Source: Anaeromyxobacter diazotrophicus (GTDB lineage Bacteria > Myxococcota > Myxococcia > Myxococcales > Anaeromyxobacteraceae). From it: DNA of 64,000 nt. How positions within the stretch are numbered: the stretch's first letter is position 1; every line of letters begins with the position of its first letter. The stretch is from the NCBI RefSeq assembly GCF_013340205.1, contig NZ_BJTG01000008.1:186001-250000 (forward strand). Direction: 5' to 3'. The notes under the pieces are model-generated. The model ran no database searches. It had not been told where the DNA came from and worked only from the letters and a program-made list of their open reading frames with translations. A program made the translations under genes and the position numbers. Shown here piece by piece: positions 29,569 to 36,596 of this stretch.

Positions 29569-31746
29569 TCACACCCGCCAGTGGATCCGCTCGAAGTCCT
29601 GGTCGGGCACGGTCAAGGTCACGTAGCCGGCGCGCGGCAGCCGCTCCAGCTCCACCCCGCCGCGGAGGACGTGCAGCGCCAGGGCCACGCGCTCGCCGGG
29701 CGCGAGGCCCAGCTCCGCGAACGGCAGCGCCAGCTCCATCACGCGCGCGAAGGCCGCCCGCCCGAGCGGGGCGCCGTCGCGCCGGCCCGGCCGCTCGACC
29801 CCGTCGCAGGCCGGGGTGAAGTCCACCTGCGCCTGCACCCCCGTCGCGAGCAGCTCCACCCGCACCGCGCTGCACGCCTCGGTGGCCCGCTGCGGCGACT
29901 CCACCGGATCGAGCCGCAGGTACAGGTGGCCGAGGTCGAACCCGTAGCGCAGCGCCTCGAACGCCTGCGCGCCGCCGAACATCGAGCCGCGCGCCTGGCC
30001 GGGCCGGTAGACGCCCCCGCCCTGCCACTCGAAGTAGGTGGTCTCGCGCCCGTCGATGGTGGGCGTGATGAGCAGGGTCGGCTCCCGCAGCGGCTGGGCC
30101 TCGGCGCCGGCCGGCAGCTCCGCCCGCTTGATGGGCTCGAGCGCCTCGATGGGCAGGGGCGCGCCGATGAGCTGGCAGGCGGCGATGACGTAGGACCGGA
30201 ACAGCCCGTCGAACTCGACCGCCAGCTCGGTGTGGAAGTCGTCCCCGTACCACCAGTACCAGTCGGATCCCTCGGCGGCGTAGAGGTGCCGGTGCGCCAG
30301 CGCGATCGCCTCCCGCGTGACGCTCGGCGCCGGCGCCGCCTCCACCCGGGCCAGCGCCTCGCGGGCGCGCCCGAGCGCCGTCCAGGCGCGCCGGTCCTCC
30401 TCGTGGCCCATCCAGATCCGGTAGGACGCCTCGATCCAGGACCCGGAGTGGATGCGCGGGATGACCGGCCCCGGCGCGCCGGCGGTGGCCTCGGTGAGGG
30501 TGGCGGTGGCGAGGTCGGGGGAGCTCTCCAGCCGCCGGTAGAGCGCCTCCAGGAAGTCGCGCCCCGAGCCCTGGAAGTGCTCCCACGGGTTCTCGCCGTC
30601 GAGGAACACGCCCACCGTGGCCGGGCCGGGCTGCCCGTCGTCCTCCCACGCCTCGCCGATGGCGGCCAGGTGCGAGGTGAAGTCGGCCGCCGCCTCGGCC
30701 GCGCCGGTGCGCTGGTAGCTGAAGCCGATGAGGTCGGAGAGCCCGCGGTCGCGGAACAGCATGGGCAGCTCGCGGGCCCCGGCCTGGACGCGCCAGGGCC
30801 GGTAGAGCGCCCGCGGCCGCGGGGTGCCCTCGGGCAGCGAGTGGAGCAGCACGCCCTCGTCGGTGGCGGCCCAGCGCACGCCCTCCGAGGCGAGCAGCTC
30901 GAGCGCCTCGGGGGACACCGAGCCCTCGGCCGGCCACATCCCGGCGGGCCGCGCGCCGAAGTGGCGCTCGTGGCTCGCGATCGCCTCGCGCACGTGCCAG
31001 CGCGCGTCCTCGGGCCAGGCGAAGCGCGGCGGCAAGGGCAGGTGCGGGAGCGCCCGCCGCGCCGAGTCGGTGTCGCACACGAGCGGGAGGATCGGGTGGT
31101 AGTAGGGCGTCGAGGACAGCTCGACCTGCCCGCGCTCGGAGAGGGCCCGCCAGCGCGGCGCGATCTCGCCGACCACCCGCCGCTGCGCCGCCAGCACGTA
31201 GTCGAGGTCCGCCTCCGTGTAGCCACGCCCCTTGGCCCGCAGCGCCGCCAGCCCGGGGTCGTCCTCGACGGCCCCGAACCCGAACCAGCCGAGGTTGAAG
31301 AGCACCTGCAGGTCGGCCAGCTCCGCCTCGCTGAAGCCGCTCGCCACCCGCGCCAGGTCCAGGTAGCGCACGTCCCGGCCGCGCTTCTGGAGCAGCTCCC
31401 AGTAGCGGGGCATGGGCTTCACCACCGTCTCCCAGTCGATCATGAAGAACGACCGGAGCACCGCCTGGCGCTCCTCGGGCAGGAGCTCGCGGGCGCGCTT
31501 CCTCGACAGGTCGAGGAAGCGATCGCGCGCCTCGCCCCGGGCGTACGCCTCGAGCTGCTCCATCAGCACCGGGGTGAAGTTGACGGTGCAGCGGATGGCG
31601 GGGTGCCGCTCCAGCATCCACGCCATGTCGTAGTAGGCGCGCGTCGCGTGCAGGCGCACCCACGGCAGGAGGAACTCGCCCGTCTCCGGCGCGCGGTAGA
31701 GCGGCTGGTGCATGTGCCAGAGGAAGGCGAGCCGGACCTTGGCCAT
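29569..31746 (-). CDS. Glycoside hydrolase family 57 protein
   Basis: A 725-residue enzyme acting on alpha-glucans (amylase, pullulanase or branching enzyme type). The N-terminal LWHMHQPLY (residues 9-17) is GH57 region 1; Glu274 in GMWPAEGS is the expected nucleophile and Asp383 in FLDGENPWEH the acid/base. A C-terminal beta-rich region follows at about 540-725. There is no signal peptide, so it is probably cytoplasmic, as expected for glycogen turnover together with nearby glgA. Confidence 0.9.
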   Translation of the reverse strand: MAKVRLAFLWHMHQPLYRAPETGEFLLPWVRLHATRAYYDMAWMLERHPAIRCTVNFTPVLMEQLEAYARGEARDRFLDLSRKRARELLPEERQAVLRSFFMIDWETVVKPMPRYWELLQKRGRDVRYLDLARVASGFSEAELADLQVLFNLGWFGFGAVEDDPGLAALRAKGRGYTEADLDYVLAAQRRVVGEIAPRWRALSERGQVELSSTPYYHPILPLVCDTDSARRALPHLPLPPRFAWPEDARWHVREAIASHERHFGARPAGMWPAEGSVSPEALELLASEGVRWAATDEGVLLHSLPEGTPRPRALYRPWRVQAGARELPMLFRDRGLSDLIGFSYQRTGAAEAAADFTSHLAAIGEAWEDDGQPGPATVGVFLDGENPWEHFQGSGRDFLEALYRRLESSPDLATATLTEATAGAPGPVIPRIHSGSWIEASYRIWMGHEEDRRAWTALGRAREALARVEAAPAPSVTREAIALAHRHLYAAEGSDWYWWYGDDFHTELAVEFDGLFRSYVIAACQLIGAPLPIEALEPIKRAELPAGAEAQPLREPTLLITPTIDGRETTYFEWQGGGVYRPGQARGSMFGGAQAFEALRYGFDLGHLYLRLDPVESPQRATEACSAVRVELLATGVQAQVDFTPACDGVERPGRRDGAPLGRAAFARVMELALPFAELGLAPGERVALALHVLRGGVELERLPRAGYVTLTVPDQDFERIHWRV

Positions 31747-31790
31747 CGGGTGCGAGCTGTAACGGAGCCGAGGGTGCGCCGCCGCCCGCG

Positions 31791-34700
31791 CTACCGGAAG
31801 AGCTTCCCCAGGCCGCCCTTCGACTTGAGCTTGAGCTCGCCCATCTCCTTGGCGAGGCGCCCCAGCCGGTCCGTCTTGTCCGCGATCTCGCGCTGGAGGC
31901 GGGAGATGCGGGTGTCGCGCTCGCTCACCTGGGACTGCAGGAGGTCGCGCTCGTGCGCCATCCGCTGCAGCCGCTCGGCCACGCCCGCCCCGGGGGCGTC
32001 GGGCGAGGTCCGCGCCGCCTCGGCCACCGCCTCGGCGTCGGAGAGCCGCCGCAGCGCGTCCGCCAGCTTGCTCTCCGCCTCGCGGGCGCGCACCTCGGGG
32101 GCGCCCGCGGCCGCCGCCTGCGCGGCGCGCTCCGCCAGCTCGCCCTGGGCCGCGGTCAGCTCGGCGGCGCGCCGCTCCGCCTCGGCGCGCAGCTCGGCCG
32201 CCTCGGCGGCGCGCTCCGCCAGCTCCTCGCGGAGCCGCGCCACCTCGCCCGCCGAGGCGGCGCCGCCGGAGGCCTGCGCCGCCTGCAGCCGGCCCTCGAT
32301 CTCCTCCTTCTCCCAGCGCACCGCCTGCAGCTCGGCCTCCAGGGTGGCCGCCTCCGCCTCGGCGGTCTCGGCCGCGGCGCGCGCGGTCTCGACCTCGGTG
32401 CGGAGCCCGGCCGCCTCGGCCTGGGCCGGCGTGAGCGCCTCGGCGTACGAGGTCTCCGCCGCGCGCCGGGCCGCCTCGGCTTCGGCCCGCGCCGCCTCGG
32501 CCTGCCCCGCGGCCGCGCGGGCCGCGGCCGCGTCGGCCTTCTGGGTGGCCAGCTCCTCCTCCAGCCGCCCCACCCGATCGCGCAGCGCCTGCCGCTCCTC
32601 CTCCACCTCGGCGAAGCGCGCCGCCAGCGCCTCGCGCGCGCTGGAGAGCTCCCCGCGCAGCCGCGCCGCGGCCGCGCTCTCTTCGCTGCGCTGGGAGCCG
32701 ACCGCCGCCGCCCGGCGCTCCGCCTCCTCGGCGCGGGCGGTCGCCTCCGCCACCCGGCCCTCGACCTCCTTCAGCCGGTCGGCGAGCAGGTCCGCCTCGG
32801 CGTGACCGCGGGTCACGGCCGCCTCGGCGTCCTCGGCGCGGCGCAGCGCCTCGGCGAGCCGCGGCCCGGCCGCGCCGGACTCGGCCTGGGCGGCCGCGAG
32901 CTCCGCGCGCGTGCCCTCCAGCTCGGCGCGCGCGGCCGTGAGCGCCGCCGCGAGCTCCTCCGCCCGGGCCCGCTCGGCCTCGAGCCGCGCGCCCCCGTCG
33001 GCGCGCTCCGCCTCCAGCGAGGCGAGCTTCGCCTCCGCCGCGAGCGCCCGCGTCTCCAGCTCGGCGGCCTCCCCGGCGTGCTCCTCGCCGCGGCCCCGCA
33101 GCACCTCGACCTCGGCGGCGAGCCCGCTCGCCTGGGCGGACAGCGCCGCCTCGCGGCGCCCCGCCTCCTCGGCCTGGGCGCCCCGCGCGGCCAGCTCGCG
33201 CTCGAGCTCCTCCGCCCCGGCCCGCGCGGCGGCGAGCGCCGCCTCGGCCGCGGCGACCGCGCCGGTGAGCTCGGCCTCCCGCGCCTCGGCCGCGGCCGCC
33301 TCCGCGGCCCGCGCCTCCTCCGCGGAGCGCTGCGCCTCGCGCAGCGCAGCCGCCTCGGCGCGCGCCGCCTCGGCCTCGCGCCGGGCCGCCTCGGCGAGGG
33401 CAGCCTGCTCCGCCGCGCCCGCCTCCGCCGCCGCGCGGCCGTCCCGCGCGACGGCCAGCTCGCCCTCGGCCGCGGCCAGCCGCGCCAGGGCCTCCTCGCG
33501 CTCGCCGGCCGCCGCCTCCGCGGCGGCGCGCGCGCTCGCGAGGTCCGCGTCCGCGGCAGCCCGCGCGGTGGCGAGCTCCGCGTCCGCACCGGCGCGGACG
33601 CTGGCGAGCTCCTCGTCCGCCGCGGCCCGCGCGGCGTCCGTCTCGCGCCAGGCCGCCTCCGCCGCCTCGCGCGCCTCGGCCGCCGACCGCGCCGCCTCCG
33701 CGCGCGCCTGCTCGGCCGCGCCCGCCTCGCTCCGCGCCTGGTCGCGCTCCTCGGCCCGCGCCCGCGCCTCCTCCTCCAGCGCGGCCACGCGCTCCTCGCG
33801 CAGGCGCGCCTCGACGCGGGCGCCGCGCAGGTCGGCCTCGCGCGCGGCGACCTCCTCCTGCGCGGCCGCCAGCTCGCCGCTCCGGGCCGCCAGCTCCGCC
33901 TCGGCGCGCGCCACCGCGTCCGCGAGCTCGTTCCGCCCCGCGCGCTCCGTCTCCAGCCGGGCCGCGACGTCGGCCTGGCGCGCCGCCGCCGCCTCGAGCT
34001 CGGCGCGCAGCGAGGCGATGACCTCCTCGAGCGCGCCCGCGCGCGCCTCCGCCTCCGCGCCCGCGGCGCTGGCCCGGGACAGCGCCTCGTCGCGGCCCGC
34101 CAGCGCCTCGGCGCAGCCGGCGTGCGCGTGCGCGGCCTCGGCGCCCGCCAGGGCCGCGTCGGCGAGCGGCCCCGGGGGCAGGGTCACGAGCACCATGCTG
34201 GCGAGCCCGGTGGGGCGCGCGCCGCACAGCGCGACGTAGTAGGCGGCCTCGGGGGCGCCGGAGAGCGAGCCGTCGACGCCCAGGTCGGGCGCGTCGTCGC
34301 CGCGCGCGGCCGGGGCGATGACCCAGCCCACCGCCGGCGACTGCGTGGCCACCTCGACCACGTCGAACTGGGCCGCCAGCGCGCCGGCGAAGCTCTCGTA
34401 CGAGGGCACGTCGAGGATGGGCGGCTCGCCGGCCAGGGCGGCGAGGCCGCGCGCGCCGGCGGCCGCGAGCGCGGTGACGAGGTGCCCGCGCGGCGAGAGC
34501 AGCTCGGCCAGCGCCGCCAGGCGCTCGGGGCTCGCCGCCAGCGCGGCGCCGTCGGCGACGAGCACGAGGTCGAAGGCGTGCTGCGGGAGCTCCTCCAGCG
34601 CCGCCGCGCGGAACTGCACGAAGGGGTGCGCCGAGACCTCGGCGGCGCGGCCGAGCCCCAGCCCGTCGTCCTCGACCGAGAGCACCGCCGCCGCGCCGCG

Positions 34701-34844
34701 CTCGGCCAGCGCCAGCGCCGACGCGCCGTCCGTCGCGCGCGCCGCGCCGATCTCCAGCACGCGCCGGCCGCCCAGGATCGGCTCGATGAAGCTGTAGCGC
34801 GAGAGGAGGTCGGCCGCCCCATGCGGCGCGTAGAAGGTGCTCAT
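31791..34844 (-). CDS. Large coiled-coil protein with N-terminal methyltransferase-like domain
   Basis: A 1017-residue protein. Residues 1-215 resemble a Rossmann methyltransferase, with VLEIGAARATDG at 29-40, a strand with FDLVLVADGA near 110 and LLSPRGHLVTAL near 135, but it may not keep catalytic residues. Residues about 240-1000 are almost continuous Ala/Glu/Arg-rich heptads predicted to be coiled coil. The basic tail ends LKLKSKGGLGKLFR. Architecture recalls myxobacterial scaffolds such as AglZ, in which a globular domain precedes a long coil. It sits 45 bases before the GH57 gene. Confidence 0.78.
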   Translation of the reverse strand: MSTFYAPHGAADLLSRYSFIEPILGGRRVLEIGAARATDGASALALAERGAAAVLSVEDDGLGLGRAAEVSAHPFVQFRAAALEELPQHAFDLVLVADGAALAASPERLAALAELLSPRGHLVTALAAAGARGLAALAGEPPILDVPSYESFAGALAAQFDVVEVATQSPAVGWVIAPAARGDDAPDLGVDGSLSGAPEAAYYVALCGARPTGLASMVLVTLPPGPLADAALAGAEAAHAHAGCAEALAGRDEALSRASAAGAEAEARAGALEEVIASLRAELEAAAARQADVAARLETERAGRNELADAVARAEAELAARSGELAAAQEEVAAREADLRGARVEARLREERVAALEEEARARAEERDQARSEAGAAEQARAEAARSAAEAREAAEAAWRETDAARAAADEELASVRAGADAELATARAAADADLASARAAAEAAAGEREEALARLAAAEGELAVARDGRAAAEAGAAEQAALAEAARREAEAARAEAAALREAQRSAEEARAAEAAAAEAREAELTGAVAAAEAALAAARAGAEELERELAARGAQAEEAGRREAALSAQASGLAAEVEVLRGRGEEHAGEAAELETRALAAEAKLASLEAERADGGARLEAERARAEELAAALTAARAELEGTRAELAAAQAESGAAGPRLAEALRRAEDAEAAVTRGHAEADLLADRLKEVEGRVAEATARAEEAERRAAAVGSQRSEESAAAARLRGELSSAREALAARFAEVEEERQALRDRVGRLEEELATQKADAAAARAAAGQAEAARAEAEAARRAAETSYAEALTPAQAEAAGLRTEVETARAAAETAEAEAATLEAELQAVRWEKEEIEGRLQAAQASGGAASAGEVARLREELAERAAEAAELRAEAERRAAELTAAQGELAERAAQAAAAGAPEVRAREAESKLADALRRLSDAEAVAEAARTSPDAPGAGVAERLQRMAHERDLLQSQVSERDTRISRLQREIADKTDRLGRLAKEMGELKLKSKGGLGKLFR

Positions 34845-35024: not shown

Positions 35025-35195
35025 TCAACCCTGAGTCGTGCCCGGCGCCGGCGCAGCCCCTGGCGCCGCCGGACCCGGGCCCGCCTCGCCGAAGGGCGCT
35101 CCCTGGCGCAACTCCCGGGCCCTGTCGCAGTCCGCCCCACAGGCGGCGATGGCGAGCGCGAGCAGCACAGCGGTGAGCACCCACAGCCGGGTCAC
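35025..35195 (-). CDS. Very small predicted lipoprotein
   Basis: A 56-residue frame from GTG 35195. Its N-terminus VTRLWVLTAVLLALAIAACG is a compact lipoprotein signal with lipobox AIAAC (Cys19). The mature 38 residues carry a second cysteine at 23 and a Gly/Pro/Ala-rich tail. No family is recognised. The signal peptide is the main reason to consider it real. Confidence 0.55.
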   Translation of the reverse strand: MTRLWVLTAVLLALAIAACGADCDRARELRQGAPFGEAGPGPAAPGAAPAPGTTQG

Positions 35196-35343: not shown

Positions 35344-36069
35344 TCACCGCGCCGGCGCAGGACCTGGCTGCTGCACCTGCGCGGCGGGCGCCGGCGGCGC
35401 GGCCTCCGCCGGCGGGACTGGCTGGTTGCCGCCCGGCGACGCGAGCGCGCGCTCGGCCCGGTACAGCTCGTCGACGGTGGGTCCGACGAGGCGCAGCGCC
35501 TCCCCGGCCTCTCCGGCGTGGTGGGAGGACGAGGCGGCGGTGAGCTTGAGCTTCTCGCGCGCCTGGCGGAGCGCGTCGGTGGCCTTCCCGAGGAGCTGGC
35601 GCGCCTCGAAGTAGCCGGACTCGGCGCGCACGGTGCGCAGGTCCTCGCGCTGGGTGGCGGAGAGGCCGGCCAGCTTCTCGGCGCGGTCGATCCACGACAG
35701 CGCGCGCTCCACCAGCTCGGGCTTCTCGGTGGCGAGGTCGTCGCGCGCCCACTTGGCGAGGTACTCGTAGAGCGCCTGGTCGAGGCCGCCCCGGTCGTCG
35801 AAGGTGCGCTCCTCGTCGAGCTTGAAGCCGGCGGGCGGCTTCAGCGGCGCGTAGGCCTGCGCCTGCGCCGGATCGGCGGTCTTGAAGGTCTGGCGGCCCA
35901 TCGGCGCCATGACCCCCTTCTTCACGGTGAGGTAACCGTCCTCCAGCGCCAGCGTGTAGGTGCGCGCGTTCCGCTCGGAGAGCAGGTAGACCACCACCGC
36001 GAACAGCGCCAGCACCGCCACCACCAGCAGGAAGGTGCGGCCGGCCGAGCCGCGCGCCGGGGCGCTCAT
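35344..36069 (-). CDS. Membrane-anchored hypothetical protein
   Basis: A 241-residue protein with one N-terminal membrane helix (residues 13-31, [17 protein letters not shown]) and a soluble C-terminal part. The soluble part is mostly helical with TPR-like spacing (for example [17 protein letters not shown]) and ends in a Pro/Ala tail. It overlaps the hpt stop by 4 bases (ATGA). A bitopic scaffold or accessory protein is likely; no specific role can be given. Confidence 0.75.
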
Positions 36070-36596
36070 GGCTTCACGACCCCGAGGAAGGGGAGGTTGC
36101 GGAAGCGCCCGTCCCAGTCGAGCCCGTAGCCGATCACGAACTCGTCGGGGATGGAGAAGCCCTTGTACGCGATGGGCACCTGCACCTTGGCGCGGGCCGG
36201 CTTCTCGAGCAGCGCGCACACCTTCACGCTGGCCGGGTGCCGGGTGGCGAGGTTCTCGAGCAGGTACTGCATGGTGAGCCCGGTGTCGACGATGTCCTCG
36301 ACGAGCAGGATGTGCTCGCCGTCGATGGGCCGCGACAGGTCGTTCGTGATGCGCACCACGCCGCTCGACTTCGTGCCCTGGTACGAGGTGGTGCCGATGA
36401 AGTCCACCTTGAGCGGCAGGTCGATGGCGCGCGCCAGGTCGGCCAGGAACATGAAGCTGCCCTTCAGCACGCCCACCAGCGTGAGCGGCTGGCCGGCGTA
36501 GTCGGCGCTGATGCGGGCGCCCAGCTCCGCGATGCGCGCGGCGAGCTGCGCCTCCGAGAGCAGGACCTCGACCTTCTCGCCCCCGAGCCTAGACAT
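36066..36596 (-). CDS. hpt: Hypoxanthine phosphoribosyltransferase
   Basis: A 176-residue purine-salvage enzyme making IMP (and perhaps GMP) from hypoxanthine or guanine and PRPP. The PRPP loop [12 protein letters not shown] is at residues 97-108 and GVLKGSFMF at 42-50 is the early HGPRT motif. It overlaps a upp-like gene by 8 bases, so two base-salvage genes are translated together. Confidence 0.93.

Follow-up and report, generated by a model that had tools for sequence, protein, structure and literature searches.

The question raised by this locus is whether a large protein with a methyltransferase-like head on a very long coil is an enzyme or a structural element of the cell. The window analysed was the whole stretch of 64,000 nucleotides from Anaeromyxobacter diazotrophicus (contig NZ_BJTG01000008.1, positions 186,001 to 250,000 of the forward strand). 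The gene, referred to below as the head-coil gene, was located at 31791..34844 on the minus strand (start codon ATG at 34844, last base of the stop codon at 31791) and encodes 1017 residues, in exact agreement with the original prediction. The GC content at its three codon positions was 0.89/0.60/0.99 (GC3 0.99), and it was therefore treated as a real gene and not as a long antisense frame.

The head (residues 1 to ~225; 34170..34844, minus strand) was compared with domain, structure and sequence collections. The single protein gave a sub-threshold Pfam match to Methyltransf_25 (E 0.083), and 35 of 40 aligned head homologues matched Methyltransf_11. An AF2 model of the head, built with 40 sequences, reached a pLDDT of 82.4 and a pTM of 0.82, and was weak only at residues 173–178, 185–197 and at the end. 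Searched with Foldseek, the model had 612 PDB matches with an E no higher than 0.001, with methyltransferases on top (best E 9.2e-9); VIA-align returned a Z of 16.1 against 1ve3_B over 173 residues (rmsd 2.9). A profile search of the PDB sequences with the head also led to methyltransferases (2avn, E 2e-6). On the predicted model, the head is a class I methyltransferase fold, and we regard this as settled; the Rossmann-type, methyltransferase-like head originally proposed has thus stood up to structure prediction. Pfam searches of the protein gave no Response_reg match up to E 1 and no kinase or glycosyltransferase domain.

The head is followed by an Ala/Glu/Arg coil (residues ~226–980; 31905..34169, minus strand). 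The region after the head, about 790 residues, is 35% Ala, 18% Glu and 13% Arg, with five prolines. The heptad-band power of the coil hydrophobics was 19.4, against 6.5 ± 1.0 (maximum 9.8) in 200 shuffles, and 19/26 coil windows peaked at 3.47–3.59 residues. With the globular protein GlgA as the control, the power was 12.6 against 7.1 ± 1.6 in shuffles, so that helical proteins generally exceed their shuffles, by less than the coil does. The long Ala/Glu coil that had been read from the letters was confirmed by this 3.5-residue periodicity. Residues ~287–480 are Ala-rich, lack clear heptads and may form a single helix. Weaker repeat units of 21 and 42 bp were found in the window coil, among others of 15, 18, 27, 30, 33 and 75 bp. 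The orthologue of Myxococcus xanthus (L095:806-6421, strain AM003; 1871 residues) carries in its coil a 63-bp tandem repeat (21 residues, three heptads) in 5.3 copies with an 83% match.

The protein ends in a conserved C-terminal cap (residues 981–1017; 31794..31904, minus strand). Against four relatives (L045, L046, L047 and L065), identity was 56–64% for the head, 8–62% for blocks of the coil and 68–76% for the last 37 residues; in the Anaeromyxobacteraceae, the last ~37 residues are conserved like the head. Inspection by eye and by pattern picked out a comparable R[IL]xRL-type ending in members of families f5, f11, f13, f17 and others. The cap motif was not found in the C-termini of the Myxococcaceae, where the tail is instead rich in proline or acidic.

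Tail lengths were taken from complete frames, available in 90 of the 153 loci with a head E of 1e-15 or better; six methyltransferase-glycosyltransferase loci were excluded and rows identical in the first 60 residues were merged (first length kept), leaving 62 frames. The tails after the head ranged from 109 to 2037 residues, and coil length varies about tenfold, between some 200 and more than 2000 residues. The shortest tails (L027/L079, L041 and L002/L063) belong to draft genomes, and some of them are apparently frameshifted; among closed genomes, the shortest (L042) has about 207 residues. The result that would have made the coil incidental, a full methyltransferase of known substrate with coil-less homologues, did not appear: all full-length orthologues other than the suspected frameshifts bear a coil.

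The plan of head and coil recurs across the Myxococcota, M. xanthus included. A search with the head sequence matched 15 of the 24 genomes of the family (13 with an E of at most 3e-59, the other two around 1e-4) and 122 of the 147 genomes of the class. The head profile matched 173 of the 195 genomes of the phylum, a figure unusable as a count of the family because ordinary methyltransferases and methyltransferase-glycosyltransferase fusions are included. No orthologue was recognised in family f2, where the two matches opened (L052 and L153) were fused to glycosyltransferase domains. The head-coil protein is usually single-copy. Paralogues with head and coil, sought as suggested with the original prediction, were not found in the genome, where the profile had five matches and the longest frame at each of the four remaining loci was not coil-like in composition. 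In a tree of 86 heads (L050 omitted), the window protein grouped with its genus-mate (100/99) inside a 13-row Anaeromyxobacteraceae clade (100/100); the deep joins were given no weight because long branches are involved.

The gene was absent from the near-complete Anaeromyxobacteraceae genomes G011 and G014–G016, in which the flanking order is otherwise kept. At one such locus (L161) the GH57 gene directly follows the gene for a one-TM protein (described below), and at another (L163) small lipoprotein-like frames and other short ones lie between the two. Because it is cleanly missing from several near-complete genomes of this family, the head-coil gene is considered dispensable. It is retained in the 2.1–2.7 Mb genomes G125–G127; a Cystobacterineae MAG (L116) is a named record that bears this gene too.

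The genes around the head-coil gene were then compared between lineages. Upstream in the window, on the same strand, lie the gene for hypoxanthine phosphoribosyltransferase (HPRT; 36066..36596, minus strand; Pfam Pribosyltran), a conserved synteny anchor, and the gene for a 241-residue one-TM protein (35344..36069, minus strand), which overlaps the 3' end of the HPRT gene and is the usual neighbour of the family. The one-TM protein has a predicted TM helix and a helical domain, and 499 bp separate its stop from the head-coil start. Directly downstream, after 44 bp (31747–31790), is a lineage-specific neighbour of 725 residues (29569..31746, minus strand), which from its sequence we take to be a GH57-type protein; GGDEF-FHA, MFS, GalT-like and starch-synthase genes follow. 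No structured RNA was matched by Rfam across the window. The order HPRT, one-TM, head-coil is seen again elsewhere in the phylum, in other families (L136, L137 and L140). In the Myxococcaceae, the one-TM gene is divergent and dapF, receiver-GGDEF and receiver-DUF4388 genes follow the head-coil gene, and in Anaeromyxobacteraceae relatives it is succeeded by genes for PilZ and GH57. The PilZ gene was seen 3' of the head-coil gene at L045–L047 and is absent in the window, where the 44 bp lead straight to the GH57-type gene.

A homologue of the one-TM protein was present at 56 of 64 named loci, and two of the eight misses (L078 and L125) have less than 300 bp upstream. Its profile matched 157/195 genomes, including G011, G014–G016 and 10 of the 12 f2 genomes, and missed G022 and G023 although the head-coil gene is present there. 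An obligate pair was accordingly rejected, as the one-TM protein occurs without the head-coil gene in the former set of genomes and the reverse holds in G022 and G023. The predicted structure of the one-TM protein had a pLDDT of 91.1; a fold search with it returned 214 PDB matches within E 10, none of them at E 0.001. A frame for a 56-residue lipoprotein-like product (LAIAAC lipobox) was noted between the one-TM and head-coil genes (35025–35195, minus strand), and longer Cys-rich lipoprotein frames follow the one-TM gene at L049 and L163. In M. xanthus, the operon partner may be MXAN_5053, a tentative name that goes by length and domain type only; MXAN_5053 is named as a response regulator in one report (PMC4671073) and given a length of 617 in the deletion list of another (PMC4877007).

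Motif I, the glycine loop for SAM binding, was surveyed in heads that were 170 residues or longer; those taken from 152 loci were reduced to 87 non-redundant heads. A 3-residue insertion was present in 63 of these (the Myxococcia clade, window included), and none of the 63 has the canonical [DE]x[GA]xGxG. In the window protein, the remodelled loop spans residues 31–43 (EIGAARATDGASA). Active class I SAM-dependent methyltransferases share with the window head the fold and the acidic ends of β1 and β2, and differ from it in having the glycine-rich motif I (E/DxGxGxG). E31, the acidic residue closing β1, is invariant (63/63); the column of D58, at the end of β2, is D or E in 54/63 (Asp in the window protein); and the rebuilt loop is itself conserved, with G40 in 59/63. 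These features hint at some ligand. Judged from sequence, standard SAM binding has likely been lost in the Myxococcia-type heads, a statement that is not extended to all ligand binding. Among the 24 heads without the insertion, nine fit the canonical motif, namely all five that are fused to glycosyltransferases and 4 of the 19 other head-coil heads. Those four all belong to family f11, and because 4/7 f11 members keep the motif, part of the head-coil family may be enzymes. For the window protein, an active or ligand-binding methyltransferase that the coil merely localises or oligomerises would agree with the predicted fold, with the acidic positions just given and with the canonical or near-canonical motif I of the f11 relatives. 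We consider it unlikely, given the insertion and the lack of the canonical motif throughout the 63 Myxococcia-type heads, the replacement of the first glycine of motif I by Asp in 15 of them, and the otherwise disrupted loops of relatives in f17 (EVGTDDPRSL), f25 (EVGARSDDLA) and f31. A polysaccharide enzyme in which the coil serves as a ruler of glycan length was also weighed, since WbdD of E. coli O9a likewise joins an N-terminal methyltransferase fold to a C-terminal coil; WbdD is an active methyltransferase and kinase of O-antigen synthesis (PMC3482155), whereas the head-coil protein has no kinase domain between its methyltransferase head and its coil. Fusions to glycosyltransferase domains occur among distant relatives of the head, and GH57, GalT-like and starch-synthase genes lie downstream in the window. 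The GH57/MFS/GalT cluster persists, however, where the head-coil gene is missing (L161 and L163) and does not adjoin the gene at those Myxococcaceae loci that were examined. No locus for O-polysaccharide synthesis or export or for O-antigen was found among the neighbours in the window and at the relatives' loci. With about tenfold variation in coil length and no kinase or glycosyltransferase domain in Pfam, a WbdD-like role is highly improbable. Among relatives that look catalytic, the fusions themselves (L051, L052, L145 and L147) come closest to the head in these genomes; some begin, like the head, with RYxFxEPL, and they differ in having an intact motif I and glycosyltransferase domains in place of the long coil.

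Myxobacteria are a main model of bacterial polarity and, to our knowledge, their known coil scaffolds are few and receiver-headed. The original prediction had likened the protein to AglZ with a different head, and the likeness of plan holds: FrzS and AglZ of M. xanthus, from the same bacterial order, also combine a degenerate N-terminal globular domain, a long coil and a functional C-terminal end, here conserved. Their head is a receiver or pseudo-receiver and that of the head-coil protein is methyltransferase-derived; because it is no receiver, the protein was not assigned to the FrzS/AglZ family. In FrzS, a receiver-like head without the phosphorylation site, a 258-residue coil and the extreme C-terminal tail are all required for polar dynamics (PMC1974792). 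The coil of the head-coil protein is longer than that of FrzS and, across the family, variable in length; the likeness is one of plan only. A functional counterpart of FrzS and AglZ that works with MglA, type IV pili or gliding complexes, in line with the cell-polarity or gliding scaffold of the original prediction, would suit this plan and the biology of A. dehalogenans, for which colony flares of the kind seen in gliding are described, together with agl, mgl, frz and pilus genes (PMC2330069). The conserved neighbours, however, are HPRT, the one-TM protein and, by lineage, dapF and GGDEF/DUF4388 response regulators, with no motility gene among them. MglB-type (PF03259) and pilus/secretion ATPase (PF00437) families were each found in 37/37 genomes examined, whether or not these carry the head-coil gene, and since all were positive this co-occurrence does not discriminate. 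The gene is moreover kept in the small genomes G125–G127 and lost from relatives that retain those families. A role in motility or polarity of this kind is considered quite unlikely.

We favour, with slightly better than an even chance, a scaffold or tether in the cytoplasm that has no catalytic activity. On this reading, the protein represents the Anaeromyxobacteraceae in an unnamed family that spans the Myxococcota and is built of three parts: a methyltransferase-derived head, a heptad coil whose length changes fast and, in several lineages, a short cap that is conserved. A scaffold or tether fits better than an enzyme because both ends are conserved, the middle changes fast and the active-site loop is rebuilt within an enzyme fold. 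The head, no longer shaped to hold SAM in the usual way, would dock on one partner, the coil would self-associate, presumably as a dimer, and set a distance, and the cap may hold a second partner or the end of an assembly. A candidate for a partner in the membrane is the one-TM protein encoded next to it, and a role in organisation at the envelope or the pole is our guess. A wider version, whose chance we put clearly short of even, is that across the phylum such proteins form intracellular rods, with a retired methyltransferase as the docking head, a coil lengthened by whole heptad repeats to suit each species and a cap in several lineages, and so make up an undescribed spacer or cytoskeletal tether, usually encoded beside an undescribed one-TM protein. 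No Pfam or NCBIfam model names the head-coil family, and no description of it was found in a literature search that covered mainly non-subscription journals. The M. xanthus member opens the family, whose proteins reach over 2000 residues, to immediate genetic test; if the scaffold reading is true, a methyltransferase fold reused as the head of a coil, with conserved ends on either side of a middle whose length changes rapidly, would clearly exemplify evolution from enzyme to scaffold.

Three further observations were made at the loci of relatives. In several lineages, the gene directly downstream of the head-coil gene encodes an exported-looking protein of 729–781 residues that carries six or seven carboxypeptidase-regulatory domains and has a PDZ domain at its C-terminus (L038:1146-3335, L039:13730-15991, L042:5600-7894, L049:11797-14142 and L050:5380-7665). 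In G189, a diverged protein of 552 residues with a methyltransferase-like start (ARVLDLATHHDAR) is encoded right after the one-TM gene (L170:4429-6087, minus strand); because the head profile missed it, diverged members may be undercounted. The head-coil gene, of Myxococcota type and with its one-TM neighbour, was also seen in a Comamonas sp. KCTC 72670 record (L086) and in a Proteobacteria MAG (L123), both of which are probably mislabelled.
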